Source of the DNA: Gryganskiella cystojenkinii
Taxonomy: Eukaryota; Mortierellomycota; Mortierellomycetes; Mortierellales; Mortierellaceae
Direction of reading: 5' to 3'
NCBI GenBank assembly: GCA_015852425.1
Contig: JAAAIG010000074.1
Location: 1-64,000 of the forward strand
Length of the DNA stretch: 64,000 bases
Shown: positions 17,328 through 53,917 of the stretch, piece by piece
Layout of the letters: each line of letters opens with the position of its first letter
Numbering within the stretch: the first letter of the stretch is position 1
Program-made: the position numbers and the translations under genes
Notes under the pieces: model-generated
Told to the model about the DNA's origin: nothing
What the model saw: the letters and a program-made list of their open reading frames with translations, nothing else
Database searches by the model: none

Positions 17328-17622
17328 CCCTCTGCCTGCGCGACACATGCACATTCGGCCACTAATTGTGAACGCCGGTGAACAGAGGGCATCGCCAAAC
17401 CAGGGAAACCGGCCGAGCTGTTCTCTTGCTTGACGGAAGACTCGCTCCGGATCGATCCCGTTTTGTCACTCACCAATTTGGAGAGAGAGTGAGAAATCGC
17501 TATTGAGTTTGAAATGACGATGCAAAGCGACAGGGCCGCAGCTATAGCGTTCGCTCGAGCTGTGTTGGTCTCTCGCGTTTGTCGCAGCATTACACCAATA
17601 ATAGTTCTAATAACCTAGGTTT

Positions 17623-18033
17623 GTTCCGTAGTTCTCAGCTTAGCCTAAGCCCGATCCCGCTCTCGTCTCCTTTAGCTTGTTTGGCGCCTTCCTGGATTTT
17701 CTCCTGTCATCATGTTCGGGATTCTACCCTCTTGTTCCGGTTTCCGTAATCCTATACCAGCTTCCATCGTCCAGTCAAGAACGTCTATTCTGACAAATTC
17801 GTCATGACCTTGTATCCTGGCGCCTTGTATACCCTGCTACACGCCATCGGCTTCGTCTTCTAGTGAAGATTAGAACCTGCCCCTTTTTCATATAAATAGT
17901 CCCCTATCTTCTCTCTTCAGTCTGTAATAACTTACTGACCAAGTCTAGTCCTCTTGCCTACTCATTCCCTGTTCATCTTAATCAATATATCTTCGTTTTT
18001 ACACATCTCACACTTGCCTGTCAGTCTTTGACA
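17623..18033 (+). mobile_element. Possible solo LTR-like remnant
   Basis: The segment begins TGTTCC and ends TTTGACA, with a TATAAATAG box at about 17900 and a T-rich region before the end. It is followed after one base by TGGCGTCGTAGG, which could be a primer-binding-site-like TGG sequence. No matching target-site duplication is visible (AGGTT versus ATGGC) and no gag/pol frame follows. The limits are a guess. Confidence 0.18.
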
Positions 18034-18701
18034 ATGGCGTCGTAGGATATAAAGTCCGTACTCAGACCTTGTCCGTCGGCTACAATAGAATAGTCACGTT
18101 CAATATTACTCCGCGAGCTTCAAGGTCCGTTAATATCGTCGCATTCAACCGAACTGATTTCCTTCCTGTGTTGCCTTCATAGCATATGTTTGATGGCTTG
18201 CGACGACTTGGACTCAAAGAGAACAATCTCCTGCTTCCAGTCATTCTGGAGGCTTCGAGATCACGGTGAGATGCTTGATCAGACATCGGGAAAGATTGGC
18301 CCAGAGCTTTCTGTCAGTGCTTCGGACCGTGATTTGGGTTCAGATCCGGTAGAGAAACGGTTTGTGCAATGGTTTGCAGAGACACGAAGGCGGGTTATCA
18401 TGGTTCGTCGGTTGAGTACCATCAATACAATATCAGGAATTGAAGGTTGGTCGACCAAAGTCATGTCCTCGTTCTTGATGTTGTGTTTACGTCTCCTGAA
18501 GTGTATGTTTCGGCATGGCTGTAATGCTGTGAAGAAGGCGGTGGATGTAAGAACGACGGACGCGAACACGCGAACACAAAATAAACGAGTTTATTGATTT
18601 TGGCTCTTCCTGTGTGTTCTCTATGTGCAGCACAAATGAGTTGTTGTTCTGTCGATTGCGTATTAAATCCAACAGTCAACTCCCAAAGGCCACTTTGGCC
18701 C
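18034..18701. other. Intergenic, no supported gene
   Basis: Short frames only. Contains the 3' side of the secreted-protein gene that ends at 18702. Nothing recognised. Confidence 0.4.
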
Positions 18702-27400: not shown

Positions 27401-27588
27401 GTCTCATACTACCTTTAATTACTATTGCAGCAGCACTTCATCAGTGGGGTAAAGCTAACCTCTCTCGCGACGGTCTAAATCCAGCTCACGTTCCCTATTA
27501 GTGGGTGAACAATGATAGGGAGAGCCGACATTGAGGGATCAAAAAGCAATGTCGCTATGAACGCTTGGCTGCCACAAGCCAGTTATCC
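27401..27588 (-). pseudogene. Diverged fragment of 28S/25S rRNA gene
   Basis: The plus strand is the reverse complement of the peptidyl-transferase region of LSU rRNA. Recognisable stretches include TTCCCTATTAGTGGGTGAAC, AGAGCCGACATTGAGG, GATCAAAAAGCAATGTCGCT and ATGAACGCTTGGCTGCCACA. Substitutions are scattered, and one hairpin-forming segment of roughly 29 nt that normally follows GTGAACAA is missing between 27512 and 27513. No other rDNA flanks it, so it is an isolated insertion that has been diverging. The limits are approximate; weak similarity may extend some tens of bases on either side. Confidence 0.88.
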
Positions 27589-27589
27589 A

Positions 27590-28298
27590 TAGGAGTTTTC
27601 TCTTGATGTTGTCTTTTGCATTTCCCCATCCTTAGTTTTCCGTGCACTTAGTTTCCCTGCTCTCACCTTTGCTCTTGCTTTGCCTTTGCTCTTCCCTGCC
27701 CTCCCCTTTCCCTGCCCTTACTTCTCCTTGCCCTTACTCCGAGCCCTTGAACTCCATATCCCTTTTCTGCTTTCAACTGGTGTCACCCGCTGGTGTTATC
27801 AACTGCCGTTGTCTCTGGCGTCATTCTTCTTTCCATGTCCCGTGAGTTATCGGTGCCGTTCCTTTTCTCGGCATCCCCTTGATATTTTTGGTACTGTATG
27901 GTCGATTCGTCATCAACTTTCTCAAAGTCCAGCCATCTTGTCACCTCATCCATAAATGTCCTATCGATTATCTTCTCTTTCTTTTTTCGTCCTCAACACT
28001 TTCTAGACACAAACGAGGTAATCAATTGTCTCTCCTCCTTCTCCTAGTTTCCTGCGTACTTGACTAGCTCTTGTCTAAACAATCCACAACTTTTCTAGAC
28101 TACTCTTTGACATCTGAGCTTCCAATCTCTATATCAAGCTGTGTGCCTATCCCGTATATAAAGAGCTGTTCCCATCCCCATCCCTCTCAGCACTATCCAC
28201 TCACAAGGCAAGTTACTTGCTCTGCGATCACACTGGTTTGTTCTTGTGGTTTTTTGTTCGGTCTTAACATCTCTGTCGTATGTTTTCATACTAGTAAA
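27590..28298. other. Intergenic with a TATA-like element
   Basis: CT-rich sequence without a supported gene. A TATATAAAG element at about 28156 precedes the Cys-rich frame at 28299 and suggests that a promoter once served it. Runs of CCCTGCCCT-like units occur at 27690-27730. Confidence 0.35.
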
Positions 28299-39947: not shown

Positions 39948-42900
39948 TTATCCACTGCAACTCATGCAGGCGTCCTTGTTATCGATCGAGCACATCATCG
40001 CAGCCTGGTTGGCTTCTTCTTGTGTCTCACGGTTGATCGACAATTGATCAACAGTGAACTTGATAGCATCGACAGCAGGACGGGTACGGAGGTAGTACAT
40101 ACCGGTCTTAAGACCACGCTTCCAGCCGTAGAAAGCCATGGACGTGAGCTTGCCATAGTTGACATCGGCCAAGTGAATGTTCATCGATTGAGACTGATCA
40201 ATGAACGCACCACGATCTGCTGCTAAATCAATAACGACCTGTACGGGAAAGAATAAGAAAAAGTAGAAAAGAAATCGTTAGAGACCATCCAGTTCGACAA
40301 TGTCCCGATTATTGACGATAAAAGAAAAAAAAGACGTCAAAATAATTTACCTTTTGAGAAATCTCCCAGGTGGTCTTGTAAAGGGCCTTCAAATCATCGG
40401 GGATACCAGGAATACGCTGAATGGATCCATTTTCTGAGATAATACGGTTTTTGAGTTGATCGTTCCAGAGACCCATCTCGACCAGGTCCTTCAACATCCA
40501 GGGGTTCACAATCTGGAATTCACCGGCCAAGACACGACGGGTATAAATGTTCGAGGTATAAGGCTCAAAGCACTCGTTAAAGCCGAGGATTTGTGAAGTC
40601 GAGGCAGTGGGCATGGGGGCGACCAAGAGCGAGTTACGAACACCGTGTTGAGCAATGCTCGCACGGAGGGTATCCCAGTCCCAGAGATCCGTAGGAGTCA
40701 CACCCCACATATCGGGCTGAAGAACTCCCTTGGAGACGGGTGAGCCCGCATACGACTCGTAAGTACCCTCCTCCTGGGCCAGCTCACAAGAGGCCTCAAG
40801 TGCAGCGTGGTAGATGGTCTCAAAAATCTGAAGGTTCAACTTGCGAGCCTCGGGCGAATCAAAGGGCATACGCATCTTGATAAAAGCATCAGCGAGACCC
40901 TGGACACCAACGCCGACGGGACGATGACGCTTGTTCGACTTCTCCGCTTCGGGAACAGGGTAGTAGTTCTCATCGATAATCGTGTTCAAGTTACGGGTGA
41001 CGACCTTGGTGATCTTGTGAAGAAGCTTGAAGTCATAGGTCTGGTTGTTAACGAACGTGGGAAGAGCGATACTGGCCAAGTTGCAGACAGCAACCTCATC
41101 GGGACTGCTATACTCGACAATCTCCGTGCACAAGTTACTGCACTTGATCGTTCCGAGGTTCTGCTGGTTCGACTTGCGGTTACAGGCATCCTTGTACAAC
41201 ATATAAGGTGTACCAGTCTCGGTCTGGGCCTCCAAAATCGCATACCAAAGCTTCTGGGCCTTAATGGTCTTGCGGGCACGACCCTCGCTCTCGTACTTGG
41301 CATAGAGGGCCTCGAACTCCTCACCCCAGACATCCTGGAGACCGGGGGCCTCAGCAGGACAGAACAGACTCCAGTCGCCGTTATCTTCGATACGCTTCAT
41401 GAACAGATCGGGGATCCAGAGGGCATAGAAGAGATCACGGGCACGGGACTCCTCCTTACCAGTGTTCTTGCGAAGATCCAAGAACTCAAAGACATCGGCG
41501 TGCCAGGGCTCGAGGTACATGGCAAAGGCGCCGGGACGCTTGTTGCCGCCCTGATCGACATAACGGGCAGTGTTGTTGTAGACGCGGAGCATGGGGATAA
41601 GACCGTTCGAGTAACCGTTCGTACCAGCAATATAAGAACCCGAGGCACGGATGTTGTGAATGTTGAGACCGATACCACCGGCAGTCTTGGAGATCATGGC
41701 GCAGGTCTTGAGAGTGTCATAGATACCCTCGATCGAATCATCCTTCATGGTCAACAAGAAGCAAGAGGACATCTGGGGGCGGGGGGTACCGGCGTTGAAG
41801 AGAGTAGGGGAGGCATGAGTGAAGAACTTTTCGGACATGAGGTTGTAAGTCTCGATCGCCTTCTCGACATTGTCGCCGTGGATACCGACAGAGACACGCA
41901 TCAACAAGTGCTGGGGTCTCTCTGCGACACGACCGTCAATACGGAGTAGGTACGAACGCTCGAGAGTCTTGAATCCGAAATAGTTGTAGTTGAAGTCACG
42001 ATCGTAGATAATGGCCGAGTTGAGACGGTCAGCGTTCTTGACCACAGACTGGTACGTCTTCTCTGAGATCATGGAGGCGTTTTTGCCGGTCTTGGGGTTG
42101 ATGTAGGTATAGAGATCCTCGATGACCTGAGAAAAGACCTTCTTGGTCTCCTTGTGAACGTTCGAAACAGCGATACGAGCAGCGAGGATGGCGTAGTCGG
42201 GGTGCTTGGTAGTCATGTAGGCAGCCTATGTAAGAAGCAAAAAAAAAAAACAGAGTCAGTTTCTGTGGATGAGATACATATTTTAACAGCTTTGAAGCAG
42301 ATCGATCTGCACACTTACAGTCTCGGCAGCGAGGTTATCGAGCTCGACAGTGCTGACACCTTGGTAGACACCCGAGATGACCTACAAGAAATGGGACAGG
42401 TGAAAATAATGAAAAAAGTCAGTTTGCGTGAATAGAGAAAAGCCACTGAATGATTATAAACGCCGACCAAAAGGGAACAGTCCAGTTTGTAGCCTATGCA
42501 ATACAAATAAAAGTGAGAAGGGGCAACTCGAGGAATCCAACGCCATACCTTCTGGGTAACCTGGACGGGGTCAACAAAGTTCATGTCAAGACCATAGCAC
42601 AACTTGACGATTCTAGCTGTAATCTTGTCGAAGGCAACACGCTCCTTGCGACCTAGAAATGAAGACAATTCAAATTATAATTAGGGTCAAGGAATTCACA
42701 TTTCAGCACGTAGAGTGGTACGATGGGGTTTGTGCTCGGTTCTTACCATCTATTTCGATGCAAAAAGTTCCATGGTGGCAAAAGAAAGTCAAATATAAAA
42801 GGTACATAGGGATACGAGTTAGTGTCGGTTGCACAATGGTCTACGAAGTACTGGGCATTTCGAATGGTGGCGACAGGTGGCGAACGAGTCTGTTCAATGA

Positions 42901-47296: not shown

Positions 47297-48110
47297 ATGG
47301 CACCGAAACAAAAGACATCCGAAGCCGGCCAAGGAGGCGCCGGTGGTGGCAGTAGCAGTAAGGGAACCTCTGGTGGAGGAAACAACAATAACAACGCCGG
47401 AGACCGTCAACGGGATAATGACAGGAGTCACGGCAACGCCAACGGTCATTCTGAACGCGCAGGTTCATCCACTGGAGGCTCAGGGAATACAGTAAATGGT
47501 GACAAGGCCGGGGGCAATCAGGATCGCAAGGACACCGAGAAAGGATCAAGTGCTGCTGGGTCCAAGCGCAAGGCCGAATCACCGCCAATTACTGTAAGGC
47601 ACATTTCATTTCATTCATTTCTGACCACGCCTGGAATACATTCAGTTGCCGTCAACGGGGAGAGTGCTTCCAAAAAGGCGGTGTCAGCTAACAAGATGCA
47701 TATCCCTTACGTACAATATATCTGTGCCCGTAGGTTGACTTTAACAATATGGATGTAGCCACTCTCCGTCGGTATTGCCGGCTGAACAAGCTGAACCCAA
47801 AATCCAAATCACAGGAGGATCTCGCCACTGCAGCTTCAAAACACTTCGAGAAACAGATCGCGACTAAAGAGGTTGACAGTGTCGCTTACTTTTTGTTCGC
47901 CGTCAAACATCGTCGTAAGTTTTCAGAACATCATTTTTCATTCCGGGTGTGGCGGAGATCTTTTTGACAATAAGGAAGGGATTTGTTCGTCCGTTTGAGC
48001 CCTGCATCCCTCCTCTCCACAACAGCACACAGACTTATAATTTTTTTCTTGCCTTTTTATTCTTGCTCGATTTAGATAACGTGCTCAAATTGACGATGCC
48101 TTTGGCATGA
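47297..48110 (+). CDS. SAP30-like Sin3-binding protein
   Basis: Exons 47297-47593, 47734-47914 and 48076-48110 give 170 residues. The first intron (GTAAGG to CCGTAG) has a CTAAC branch site. The first 99 residues are disordered, Gly/Asn/Ser-rich with a basic KRKAE patch. The second exon starts VDFNNMDVATLRRYCRLNKL and continues to DSVAYFLFAVKHR, matching the Sin3-binding domain of SAP30 (pattern V-D-x-L-R-R-Y near the start and Y-F-x-x-x-V-K near the end). The short C-terminus is NVLKLTMPLA. SAP30 bridges Sin3 and the Rpd3-type histone deacetylase for repression. Small size is normal for fungal members. Confidence 0.82.
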
Positions 48111-48640
48111 GAGGACAACCCCTTGGACGCGCAACCACTCTTCGTGGATGTTAATCGTGGCAGGACACGGGTTCATGAAACGAAATGACAGACCAACCTC
48201 CACTCTCTTCTTCGACCTTTGCAATAATACAGAACGATGCGGACAAAATTGCCTGCTGGGTCGATCAGTGTCAACCCGCGCCTCGCCTCCTAATAAAAAG
48301 CATAATTTCTCTCTTGGAACCTGAGCGCAAGGACGTAACGTAAGAACAATGGACGCTTTCCTTGACAATGATCTTTTCGTCAATTATTGCCTTCGCAAGA
48401 ACAATCGTTTTCTTTTCACTTTGATATTCGCATTTTATTGATTTTTTTCATCCTTTCAGCTACGTCTCATGTACCAAGCAAACAAAAACAGAATCATACC
48501 TAACACACGAGAAAAAAGACACCAAAAAAAGATTAGTGGACAAATTCAATCTCGCGCTACAAGCAGTTGGTAGGAGATAGTGAAAGAGAGATGACACGAC
48601 AAGTGTTTCGTTTTCTTCAGCCATTGGGTTCTCTTGCATC
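48111..48640. other. Convergent region between SAP30-like gene and snoRNA host
   Basis: Contains the 3' end of the SAP30-like transcript and probably the last exon(s) of the snoRNA host gene on the minus strand. Open frames here lack protein character. I searched it for an snR72-type guide (for 25S A876) and saw none. Confidence 0.4.
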
Positions 48641-48654
48641 GAGTGAATCGATAC

Positions 48655-48744
48655 AAGAGTCAGAAAAGATTGGCCTGTCACAGCCGTTATAATCAATGCA
48701 CTTGGTGCTAAGTTGACCGTCGTGATAAGAAAATCATCATTGAG
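48655..48744 (-). ncRNA. snR73: Box C/D snoRNA, snR73 orthologue (25S Cm2959)
   Basis: C box ATGATGA (34-39 part of 48734-48740 on the plus strand as TCATCA), D box CTGA at 48660-48663. The guide is the complement of 48715-48725, which reads GACCGTCGTGA, identical to 25S rRNA 2957-2967. A degenerate D' box CTTA (48709-48712) follows, and the fifth base upstream of it pairs with C2959. This is the assigned target of yeast snR73. Confidence 0.85.
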
Positions 48745-49016
48745 CTGAAGAAACATAAACACACTGTCGACTTCTCGCGAAGAGAGAATATCGAGCAGTA
48801 GAAAGGATGCGGGAGGTGGATGCAACAGGGAGGTTGATGGTTACCTTATTGAAAATCTGGGAAACAGGCTTGACTTGAAGACGGCGATTGCCAATGAGTT
48901 CTTACCTACTGTGGACCAAAAAAAGAGAACTTGATTAGGATACAATGATCAAAAATTCTTTTTTTTCGATTTCCTTCTTTTGCTTTTGTTCAAAGGCAAT
49001 ACGAGCGTATAGTGGA

Positions 49017-49092
49017 GTGCATCAGTCGGTCAAAGGTGTCATCGTAAATCAGACATATGCTTGTCTTTAATTGAAAAATCATCTCATGCAGA
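49017..49092 (-). ncRNA. snR74: Box C/D snoRNA, snR74/U27 orthologue (18S Am28)
   Basis: C box AGATGA (49079-49084), D' CTGA (49049-49052), C' CGATGA, D CTGA (49022-49025), and a short GCA/TGC terminal stem. The plus strand at 49054-49066 is CATATGCTTGTCT, identical to 18S rRNA 25-37. The fifth base upstream of D' pairs with A28, the target of yeast snR74 and vertebrate U27. Confidence 0.9.
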
Positions 49093-49351
49093 GCCCCATC
49101 GGTCTATATTCACGCCCGTCGTAAGAAACATTAAAAGTAGGGGAGGAGAAAAGCTAGCATTGGAGTTGGATAGGGGAATTGAGCATTACCTTTCAAATAT
49201 CCTTGGCAAGACCAACTTTGTCGACAAAGCGAGAACATGGAACCAAGAGATGAAATCTAAAAAAGAATAGAATGGGAGAAGCCATTGTTAATATACCATG
49301 TTTAACAATGGACAAAGGTCGAAAGAAACTCAAAAAGAGGATTTTCGAAAT

Positions 49352-49475
49352 TTAAAAATCAGAAATGCATGAATGGTATATAAAAAAGAGTTTCAACATG
49401 TAACGAACGAGTGCGAAAACCGCCCACGTTCAAACGTTCAGACTCGTCATCTAAAAGGAGGATCATCACTTAAAA
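49352..49475 (-). ncRNA. snR75: Box C/D snoRNA, snR75 orthologue (25S Gm2288)
   Basis: C box GTGATGA (49463-49469), D' CTGA (49438-49441), D CTGA (49359-49362) with AT-rich terminal pairing. The plus strand at 49443-49454 reads CTCGTCATCTAA, identical to 25S rRNA from about 2285. The fifth base upstream of D' pairs with G2288. The RNA is long for the family because of the D'-to-D part. Confidence 0.85.
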
Positions 49476-49615
49476 ATTACGAAAATGGGAAGGGTAGAAG
49501 AAATGGGAAAGGGATGCTTACCATCTCAAAGGTTGTCATAGTCGGCGAGGAAGGCGACGTGTACTAAGAGGCGATCGATGATCTGAAAAAAGTAACAGAA
49601 ATAATCTCGTTAGAA

Positions 49616-49670
49616 AAAATCAGAGTCACTTCAGGTTCGTTTCATCAACAGCGATAATCGTCATCGACCT
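49616..49670 (-). ncRNA. Candidate box C/D snoRNA, target unassigned
   Basis: Lies in the same intron as the snR76 orthologue. The minus strand shows CGATGA (49660-49665) as C box, TGATGA (49642-49647) as C' and CTGA (49620-49623) as D, with a second CTGA at 49631-49634. The candidate guide before D gave no rRNA match I could recall. It could be an orphan snoRNA or chance boxes. Confidence 0.35.
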
Positions 49671-49706
49671 CAAAAGATGAGAAAGAAAGAGGATAGTCGG
49701 CTAATG

Positions 49707-49797
49707 AATCAGTCCACGGTTTTCTAGGCCGTATATATGCTTATCCACATGAATATTTCAGTGCCCAGTGCATACCCAATAAGGGTTCATCAGAATA
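49707..49797 (-). ncRNA. snR76: Box C/D snoRNA, snR76 orthologue (25S Cm2197 segment)
   Basis: C box TGATGA (49788-49793), D' CTGA (49758-49761), D CTGA (49711-49714). The plus strand at 49762-49771 reads TGCCCAGTGC, identical to the 25S segment UGCCCAGUGC that I associate with Cm2197. The fifth base upstream of D' pairs with the third C of CCC. Its position between the snR77 and snR75 orthologues agrees with the yeast order. Confidence 0.75.
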
Positions 49798-50030
49798 GCC
49801 CTTCGACTCTTTCTTTCTCTTCTAATGAGGGCCACGATCAAGAAATGACAAAAGAAATCCTTACCATCTACTTTTCCAGCAAGCCGCATCGGAGACTGAA
49901 TCCGATCGAGCGTGGATATGCTTTAGATGCTAATCAATACCTAGAAAAAAATCGGGGCCATGATTAGTTTCGATGTTTAAAAACGAAGACGACAAGGGAG
50001 GAAAGAAAATTTTCTTTTTTGCGAATGTCA

Positions 50031-50111
50031 AGTTTCAGTTGGGTGCAATAACTATCAACACTGTGATTCAGGCGGTAATTCCAGCTTTAATTGCGTTTGT
50101 ATCATCCTAGT
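50031..50111 (-). ncRNA. snR77: Box C/D snoRNA, snR77 orthologue (18S Um578)
   Basis: C box GGATGAT (about 50101-50107), D' CTGA (50068-50071), D CTGA (50035-50038). The plus strand at 50072-50084 reads GCGGTAATTCCAG, identical to 18S rRNA around the 530 loop. The fifth base upstream of D' pairs with U578, the target of yeast snR77. Confidence 0.9.
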
Positions 50112-50382
50112 TGACACACACAAAAAATAGAGAGGGGCGAATGGGGGAGGGAAAATGAGTGCTTACCATTCAACAAGATCGGATCCTTGTAAGAGGGGTA
50201 CAGAAAAGATGATCACGTCATCGATCCGAATTCAAAACGCGCTTTAACACACATCTACAAGTTGCATCAGAGGGAAAGAGACCGTTAGCAACTGTCATTT
50301 CGCGACATAATTGATGGGAATGCTTTTCAGACTAAAAGCGGCAGTGCGATAGACAAAGAGGAAGGTCGAGGTTTGGGGTAGT

Positions 50383-50465
50383 TTGCTCAGATTTTGCATT
50401 ATAAACACGTATGCTTTCAGAAACTCTAGTTTGAAATTTTGAAATAGGTGATCATCCAGGCTAAG
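50383..50465 (-). ncRNA. snR78: Box C/D snoRNA, snR78 orthologue (25S Um2421)
   Basis: C box GGATGAT (about 50450-50457), D' CTGA (50417-50420), D CTGA (50387-50390). The plus strand at 50424-50434 reads CTCTAGTTTGA, identical to 25S rRNA 2420-2430. The fifth base upstream of D' pairs with U2421, the target of yeast snR78 and human U34-type RNAs. Confidence 0.87.
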
Positions 50466-50909
50466 ACTTCGATCTCCTAATTGTCTGTCGTTCGCGCATT
50501 AGTGTCGAATGGGAGGGGGGAGATCATGACAAAGTCCTACCTTAGGCAATCGGAGAAGAGCGGGAGAGGGGGATGAAGAGGGGTGAGGTGAGAGAAGAAA
50601 AGAAAGAAAAGGAAAGAACCCACGAAAATTTTTCTTATGAAGAGGACGTAAACAAAAAAAAATTCTTAGTGACCGTCATTTTCACATCGTACACCCTTAA
50701 GTTCAAAATAGAACATGGATTTTCAATCACCACTCCACGCGTCACAAGGTATCAATTATCAAGGTCCCATCCTGGATATTTCTTTTTCTTTGGGGATGTT
50801 TGCTCTAATGATTTGTATTAGGTTGCAATTGATCTATGTACAATGGTAAAAAAACAAGCGAATAAGCAAGAAAAGATGAAAGTAAGGATGGGAAAAAAAA
50901 GGAAAGTAT

Positions 50910-53706
50910 TTAGAGCTCTTGAGTGACGATGGAACTGGACCCATCCATGGAACGATCCATCTCGACAGACGAACCCTCGGATCTCTCTGATCCTTGGATT
51001 TCACTGTCATCCTTCTTTCGTTGTCTCTCTGCAGGTGGCGAGAGCAGTTGTGGTCGAGCTGAGGGACCTCGACCAGACGCGACAACAACCGTGTCATTGG
51101 ACGAATCCGTGGTTGGTGCGTTAGCAGTGGCGGCGACCGTATGGCCCATACCTATACTCGTCACAGATGCGCTAGTACCAACATTAGCATGTTCTTGACT
51201 AGTGCCCGCGGTAGGCGCAGAGTTAGTGCCAGGTCCACTCCGATCTGACATGGGTCCGTTCTTGGGACTTGTTGGCGAAGGGATTGAGAATCGACCTGTC
51301 TTTGGTTTCTGCTGTTGAGGCGGCTGTGGTTGGTGGTGGTGGTGGTGTTGTTGTTGTTGTTGTTGTTGCCGTTGTTGTTCCTGAGGCTGTGCTTCGACCA
51401 AATGGGTGTCGACAGGCTCAGTATGTTGACCGGTGGCAGTATTGATGGCTGGACGATGACTCTCTGCTATTGTTGCTGTTGCTGACGATACCGACACCGG
51501 CACGGACGTTGGCATCGCCCTCGCCTCGGTCATCGTTCTCGCCTGGCCTTTTTGAGGGGCAGGGGTCATCTCCTTGTCCCTGAATCTCAAAAGTGCATTC
51601 CCGACCCGTTGAAGTTCCTCTTCCTTGACATTCAACTCAAATCGGATCGTGAACAAAAACTCGAGCTCCAGCTGATTCAACTCTAATAAACTGAGGCCGC
51701 CCACCTGTGGATAATAGAAAAAAAAGCAAAAGCAAAACGCAAAACGACGCAAAACAAACGATGGGTTAGTTTTTTTTTTTTTGCGCGACCAAGGAGACTT
51801 GACCGTTTAACATGGACAAAGGCAGGTGCTTCATCTTCCAAGAGGTTGTGTTTTTCTTTTGTTTTACCTTGGCATAGCGCCCGTTTGAATAAAAGTGATC
51901 AGATGTGAATTTGGCCGCGACCATGAGACAAACGATCAACAGTCGATGGATATTAAAACTGTTTATCCTGAACCCATTCGAAGTCATGGCCATGACCGGG
52001 GTCGGTGCTGGGGTCCAGGACCCGTTTGGGCAGTCGGAACTGGTTGAAGACGAGGATGAAGAGGATGACGATGAACAGTCTGTGTTTTGTTGTTGTTGTT
52101 GCACGGCTGTGACAGAAACATTGCTATCCTGGGAAAGTTTCGCTGTTGTTGTAGTCGGTGTTGATGTTGATGCTACTGTTGTCACATCACCTCCAAGTTT
52201 GGCCTTTTTGGGCACGTGCTGGACCCGATCTAAATCTTTGTATTCGTTGTCCATGTTGCGTTTGTGTCCAGGGGGACAATTTTCATCCTCCTCCGAGGGG
52301 GAACCAGACCTCCTCCCTTCTCGACTTGGTGGCGGAGATCCACGAGCAATCTGAGGTCTAGGCTCTGTCATGTGTGAGGAAGAGGAAGAGGATGGCGTTG
52401 ACGATGACGAAGATGACGAGCAAGCTGTTGTCGTTGGTCTTGGGTAACTTATTTGGGTAGTTGGTTGGTTTGTTGTTGATTCTTCCTGCTCCTCCGCTCT
52501 ACCACGTTTCTGGATCATTGGACAGTCGGAGTTTGGTTGATGGGGAGGTTGGTCCAGAGACGAAGTAAAAGAAGTGGGAGCGGCGGGAAGAGCAGCAGCA
52601 GGGTCCTTTTGAATATTTCCGTCGACTGAGATAGTTCCTTCGGTTGTTGTTGTTGCTCTCGTCGACGACGCAGGAGGGACAACAGGGGAACCGGAACGTG
52701 GTGGTTGACTGGCATGCGTGGAAGAAAAATTGGAAATTGAACAAGAATTTGTTGGTTGAGACGAGATAGGGGTAGTGATGGTGGTGGTGACTGAGGTTGG
52801 CGAGGAACGTGCTGTGGATGTGGAGAATTCATTGGATCGGACTCCCCACGAAGAAGAAGAAGAAGAGCAAGAATTGGTCAAGGGGTTGATGTGGCTGTCG
52901 TTGTTGGAGCGCAATGGTATAGATGGTGCTGTTGATTCTTGTGGCGAATCTTGTTCCTCTTCTTGTTGTTGTTCCTCTAAGCCAACATGACCACCTCCGT
53001 TGCTGCCGTCTTGGTTGTTGATTTGGTTGCTGCTGCAGATCTGCTCCATCCCGCTCAACCCCCCGATCCGGTCGAGGTACACGAGCACGTTGAGCAAAAC
53101 CTCGTTTGAAAACGGAATATACTGCAAGATTCTGGACAGGTAAGCCTCGATCGAAATCCTGGCCACAGCCCGGGCATGAAAGAGAGTGATGGGGTCGACG
53201 AGAGGATTGTATTGCTGGTCGTTTGTGCGAACCATGGAAGAGAGTAAAACCGATACGATCAACGTCGTATGTTTGATAGGGTAATGGACAATATCGAATT
53301 CTTCTTTGGAGAGGGCGAGTACCGACGCTGTGGGGGATGAAGGGAAGTGAGATGGGGAAGATGGACTACTAGTACGAGGTGGTAGTTGTGCTTGCAATTG
53401 TTGTTGTTGTTGTTGAAGTTGACGCCGCCTTGTTTGTGAGGAGGAATATGAGTGTTGGTGTTGATGTTCTTGAGGCGAGGATGAAAATGTGGCAGCCTTG
53501 GCTGCAGCAGCAAGAGTAAGGGCAAGAAATTGGCGATCGACAATGTAGTCCTGTTGTTGCGTTGGTGTTTGGGGAGACGGGGAAGTGGTGGTTGTGCCTG
53601 ATGTTGAGGCGACGGAGCAGTTTTCCTCGGAGAAGGGAACTGAGGTTGTTGTGGCCATGTCAACGTCCGGCTGGGTCGCCACGGACTGAGAGTCCGGGAC
53701 GGACAT
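50910..53706 (-). CDS. Pho80/PCL-type cyclin with a split cyclin box
   Basis: Exons 53706-51868 and 51704-50910 (GTAAAA to CCACAG, phase 0) give 877 residues. The first half of the cyclin fold is at about 140-221: HTTLIVSVLLSSMV, then ITLFHARAVARISIEAYLSRIL and NEVLLNVLVYLDRIGGLS. The second half resumes at 577 with FRINSFNIHRLLIVCLMVAAKF, then GGLSLLELNQLELEFLF. Between them lie about 355 residues of Ser/Thr/Gln-rich low complexity, where family members normally have a short loop. The C-terminus (about 185 residues) is Gln/His-rich and disordered. Pho80-type cyclins partner Pho85-like kinases in phosphate, glycogen and cell-cycle control. The ATG at 53706 was chosen because the residues upstream in frame are a translated CT-rich leader. 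Confidence 0.88.
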
Positions 53707-53917
53707 GGGATTTTTGTTGTTGTTGTAGTGAGAAAGAGTAAAGATGGGGAAAACAAAGAGAAAGACTGGGAGGCGCGAAATAGGGCACGGATGGAGGAAA
53801 ACTGGGTGTGGTGTTGAACCCGAAAAAAACCTCTCTCGAGGAAACAGATCTTTGCGTAACACCTTCCACTGACAATCTGATAACAAGCCAGATCGCCACT
53901 GACGAGATAGCTTTTAA

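Follow-up and report, generated by a model that had tools for sequence, protein, structure and literature searches.

The closest described counterpart of the locus analyzed here is snoRNA gene cluster I, given in the cited part of PMC3596301 as snR78-77-76-75-74-73-72, in a survey that found clusters in nearly all of the fungi analyzed. According to the same part of that source, in Euascomycetes, Basidiomycota and Rhizopus oryzae the cluster sits in introns of hosts that have no long ORFs; of the 460 snoRNAs of three clusters, 323 were predicted to be intronic, and 83 of these introns were verified by EST or RT-PCR. Citing Mitrovich 2010, it also states that S. cerevisiae and its close relatives lost the introns through decay of the splice signals. 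Variation is described there as well: most fungi no longer have snR72 in the cluster, the snR76 intron was lost in R. oryzae and in fission yeasts, and several cluster introns are scattered or gone in some Basidiomycota. Splicing of the Neurospora clusters was shown by RT-PCR, as stated in the cited part of PMC2780460.

Here, we analyzed a window of 64 kb (the whole stretch of DNA under study), together with the genome to which it belongs (35 Mb in 1050 contigs). Our reading, to which we assign a probability of roughly 0.94, is that the window carries the fungal snR78-snR73 box C/D cluster, that is, snoRNA gene cluster I, of a Mortierellaceae-like fungus, with the snoRNAs placed in the introns of a noncoding host gene.

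Identity and order of the snoRNAs

An Rfam scan of positions 48000–51400 identified six box C/D snoRNAs within 1.8 kb of the minus strand (48658–50462). First in the direction of transcription is snR78 (50385–50462; RF01176, 39.8 bits against a gathering score of 48, E = 5.9e-4), followed by snR77 (50033–50112; RF01181, 47.5 bits against 50, E = 7.9e-5). The third, snR76 (49706–49797), was matched by RF01209 at 49705–49778 (29.2 bits, gathering 55) and by an overlapping Afu_513 match that reaches 49797 and includes a C box (24.0 bits, gathering 48). Downstream lie snR75 (49357–49471; RF01185, 60.7 bits, gathering 40), snR74 (49018–49090; RF00086, 37.6 bits, gathering 52, E = 3.4e-4), which is assigned to the SNORD27 family in yeast by a table in the cited part of PMC3511168, and finally snR73 (48658–48744; RF01207, 33.7 bits, gathering 37, E = 5.6e-3).

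The gathering score was passed by snR75 alone, and the other five matches have E values of 7.9e-5 to 5.6e-3 in the 3.4 kb search and of 0.0015 to 0.11 when the whole window is searched. At E ≤ 1, the 64 kb gave 10 Rfam matches, seven of which fall in the cluster (the six snoRNAs and Afu_513 over snR76); the remaining three are a fragment of LSU rRNA and two weak matches of miRNA type, so that no snoRNA match was obtained outside the cluster in the window. Because the six matches are confined to 1.8 kb of a single strand and stand in yeast order, they are not due to chance. The initial annotation had named these six snoRNAs and equated their order with that of the yeast polycistron; the covariance models bear this out, as all six members were matched in the conserved order on one strand, five of them below gathering, which places the locus in cluster I.

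A mature box C/D snoRNA is bound by fibrillarin, Nop56, Nop58 and Snu13. By sequence, C, D′ and D boxes were found, and the guide adjoins D′ or D. Relative to TGATGA, one base is changed in the C box of each of snR78, snR77 and snR74, and snR73 has a degenerate D′ box (CTTA).

Two further observations concern individual snoRNAs. On the minus strand of window positions 48600–48760, inspection by eye found snR73 flanked by the complementary stretches TTTCTTCAGC and GCTGAAGAAA, as well as a possible hairpin, CTCTTGTATCGA / TCGATGCAAGAG, after this snoRNA; an outer stem of this kind may aid snoRNP assembly. In addition to the known guides, stretches of the Rfam consensus are conserved in snR73 (CTGTGACAGG), snR76 (GGCCTAGAAAACC) and snR75 (ACCATTCATGCATTTCTGA). 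We know of no target for these three stretches, which may be second antisense elements.

Predicted introns and the host gene

Splice signals suggest that each snoRNA lies within a spliceosomal intron. The six predicted introns span 48500–50540 of the minus strand, measure 226–345 bases and carry GTA at the start and TAG or CAG at the end, with predicted branch points (CTAAC, CTAAT or TTAAC) 23–33 bases ahead of the intron end. In order of transcription, they are intron 1 around snR78 (50255–50540; GTAGGA, CTAAC branch, TAG), intron 2 around snR77 (49941–50166; GTAAGC, CTAAT, TAG), intron 3 around snR76 (49583–49864; GTAAGG, CTAAC, CAG), intron 4 around snR75 (49257–49521; GTAAGC, TTAAC, TAG), intron 5 around snR74 (48909–49189; GTAATG, CTAAT, CAG) and intron 6 around snR73 (48500–48844; GTAACC, CTAAT, TAG).

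These signals were compared with those at random places of the window. Under a strict rule, in which the first AG after the branch point is required, four of the six snoRNAs pass (introns 3 and 5, with snR76 and snR74, fail) versus 2.3% of 20,000 random places. Under a relaxed rule, chosen after the strict result and skipping AGs less than 10 bases from the branch, a 5′ splice site, a branch point and a 3′ splice site were found at all six snoRNAs versus 3.9% of 20,000 random places. As control introns we used three from the neighboring ribonucleotide reductase gene, placed by tblastn, which show the same terminal motifs (GTA at the start, TAG or CAG at the end), and whose likely branch point, by eye, is CTGAC in two and CTAAC in one. 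The ORF of this gene (40309–42216) is 94% identical to proteins assigned to Mortierella sp., Haplosporangium sp. and Dissophora ornata (the best three of 120 matches listed). A member of the Mortierellaceae is therefore the most likely source of the window, and an initial assignment to a basidiomycete was abandoned on account of this match.

Taken together, the exon model gives a host gene at about 48420–50610 (minus strand), the outer exon ends being guessed, with inner exons at 50167–50254, 49865–49940, 49522–49582, 49190–49256 and 48845–48908 (88, 76, 61, 67 and 64 bases, respectively). The joined exons amount to 506 bases as drawn, and their longest ATG-initiated ORF has 62 codons; 18.6% of 2000 simulated sequences contain one at least as long. 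The joined exons thus hold no ORF beyond chance, and the host seems to be noncoding. Both intronic snoRNAs and tiny exons free of a long ORF had been proposed for this locus beforehand; the predicted splice signals agree with the former at six snoRNAs (relaxed rule) or four (strict rule), and the latter stands at the chance level just given, with the outer ends guessed.

Rather than to a host of their own, the introns could belong to the upstream gene, which encodes a cyclin-domain protein, as part of a 3′ extension. This gene (ORFs at 50910–51752 and 51766–53886, with Pfam matches) is on the same strand, and about 300 bases separate its ORF from exon 1 as drawn; however, the cyclin ORF stops ahead of the cluster, and the hosts described in the cited parts of PMC3596301 and PMC2780460 are noncoding genes in their own right. 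We consider such an extension improbable.

A second alternative is an unspliced polycistronic precursor, cut by RNase III between the snoRNAs as in S. cerevisiae. The snoRNAs and their order are indeed shared with the yeast polycistron, but splice signals surround all six snoRNAs (four under the strict rule), and in Euascomycetes, Basidiomycota and Rhizopus oryzae the cluster members lie in introns, as given in the cited part of PMC3596301. Moreover, we found no AGNN-loop hairpin with a stem of at least 7 bp in 48450–50600, which is weak evidence given that shuffled sequences yield a mean of 0.10. This type of precursor is, in our view, very unlikely here.

We therefore keep to a spliced noncoding host, for which established snoRNA biology would predict the following steps. 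RNA polymerase II would transcribe a multi-intron gene from the minus strand; the spliceosome would excise six introns, each with one snoRNA; and, after debranching, exonucleases would shorten each intron until only the box C/D RNA, shielded by its proteins, is left. These RNAs would then guide 2′-O-methylation of rRNA at U2421, U578, C2197, G2288, A28 and C2959 (yeast numbering), and the spliced exons would be a by-product without evident coding capacity.

Guides, rRNA targets and rRNA-derived fragments

A guide next to the D′ box is recognizable in all six snoRNAs. Four of them were compared with rDNA fragments of the same genome, giving duplexes of 11–15 bp. The snR78 guide forms a 12-bp duplex with an LSU fragment (L023) whose fifth base is U (U2421), and the snR77 guide a 15-bp duplex with an 18S fragment (L018) whose fifth base is also U (SSU U578). 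For snR75, a 12-bp duplex with an LSU fragment (L021) places G at the fifth base (G2288), and for snR73 an 11-bp duplex with three LSU fragments (L011, L012 and L016) places C there (C2959). We take these bases of the fragments to correspond to the yeast positions U2421, U578, G2288 and C2959. The prior claim that the fifth-base rule leads to known methylation sites consequently holds for these four in the fungus's own rDNA fragments. For the remaining two, the D′ guides of snR76 (GCACTGGGC) and snR74 (GACAAGCATATG) have LSU C2197 and SSU A28, respectively, as expected targets. Since the same pairing script also yields chance duplexes of 10–12 bp with other sequence, duplex length alone is weak evidence, and it is the agreement of position that counts. 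The yeast guide of each of the six methylation sites is tabulated in the cited part of PMC5199042.

In view of these guides, it is barely credible that the six are functionless, degenerate remnants: five fall below the Rfam gathering score and some boxes are off consensus, but every D′ guide is recognizable, four pair with the fungus's own rDNA fragments, and snR75 has a single match in the genome with no second copy found (56 of 4547 first-look candidates scored).

Intact rDNA was not found in the assembly, as 18S and LSU queries returned dispersed fragments only. One of them (L018/L019, at about 17600–18200 of G000:C551) is, by eye, a lone piece of 18S rDNA of several hundred bases in unrelated DNA, and three further places (L021, L022 and L023) carry LSU pieces of a different region.

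Separately, the window holds an LSU rRNA fragment at 27443–27661 on the minus strand (142 bits, Rfam), which has at least 39 other dispersed matches in the genome (40 of 68 candidates scored), further copies being L011–L017, L024–L043 and L045–L047. Of the 28 loci compared, among them that of the window, 26 have a match whose start lies within 14 bases of a common rRNA point (near GGATAACTGGCTTGTGG); L014 among the 28 is the reference itself, L041 starts later, and the query begins at this very point and may favor copies that start there. By eye, the compared loci share no sequence upstream of the start point, and 11 of the 28 share a diverged tail. A query made from one tailed copy gave 41 matches, 22 of which (itself included) reach the tail, with a unit of about 130 bases. 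This repeat has the look of a SINE-like family whose head would derive from LSU rRNA, and no clear target-site duplications were seen in the eight rows (seven places) checked. In L024 and L033 the tail is continued by sequence (for example, TGTACTAACATTTTTTTCTCTTAAGGGG in L033) that is similar to a branch point, a pyrimidine tract and a 3′ splice site. The cited parts of the literature describe rRNA-derived SINEs in animals and 5S-related SINEs in Aspergillus, and no LSU-derived SINE of a fungus was among the literature matches listed. The family may deserve more attention.

The search for snR72 and comparison with other fungi

The initial annotation had also noted that snR72 is missing from its expected place. 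Our searches used a guide-plus-D-box pattern built on the sequence around A876, which we take to be the snR72 target. In the window, no place with up to two mismatches to the expected guide directly abuts a D box, and at three mismatches there are 13 places versus 20 expected by chance, in keeping with the absence noted. Across the genome, a 10-base guide followed by TGA within two bases occurs at five places (one for the backwards-pattern control). Four of these were rejected by eye, as a suitably spaced C box is lacking. At the fifth (L002), the guide is followed one base later by ATGA and preceded by TGATGG at about 60 bases; this place was rejected as snR72 because it lies opposite a gene of the other strand, where it falls between two of that gene's ORFs, and because its guide letters are the reverse of the branch-point-like ACTAATC. 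A 7-base guide combined with a C box and CTGA gave two places (one in two rows), neither of which is a snoRNA by eye. Rfam scans of L002–L008 returned only weak matches at other places; as the table in the cited part of PMC3511168 lists no Rfam family for snR72, a match under that name was beyond the reach of Rfam. The genome pattern searches, all built on the presumed target, thus gave no convincing snR72 candidate.

Searching the plasmid collection for nearly identical sequence yielded no match, and among the literature matches listed there was no publication on Mortierella snoRNA clusters. In every respect tested, the present cluster agrees with the published picture of cluster I, to which it adds a lineage and a retained snR76. 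The snoRNAs, their order, the arrangement of one snoRNA per intron, the host without a long ORF and the absence of snR72 from the cluster are all as described for cluster I in the cited part of PMC3596301. Rhizopus oryzae, the only zygomycete named in that part, has lost the snR76 intron, whereas snR76 is present here; the cluster is scattered or partly lost in some Basidiomycota according to the same source, and here it is neither. We lean towards the view that the full intronic order of six snoRNAs stood near the base of Mucoromycota and Dikarya, that the loss of snR76 in Rhizopus was a separate and later event, and that snR72 left the cluster in this lineage too.

The snR78 of this locus shows, by eye, no snR72-like guide on its D-box side, judged against the target sequence that we presume for snR72; this differs from CD5 of Neurospora, a single snoRNA that combines the guides of snR72 and snR78 (PMC2780460, in the part cited). 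Cluster I of Neurospora crassa is likewise intronic, in a host with short ORFs only, as the same part of that source states. As gathering scores recover only one of the six snoRNAs, the cluster described here is also useful for annotation.

The snR78-snR72 polycistron of S. cerevisiae contains the six snoRNAs in identical order, with the same targets for the four compared here. Its precursor is unspliced and ends with snR72, as given in the cited part of PMC3596301, whereas the present locus has intronic signals and snR72 is absent from the cluster. The view that this order predates the change in processing mode, which had been suggested for this locus from the outset, is already published in that source. 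One early-branching fungal lineage is hereby added, and the published picture itself is unchanged: an old intronic host, from which splicing was lost in Saccharomyces while the order of the snoRNAs stayed.
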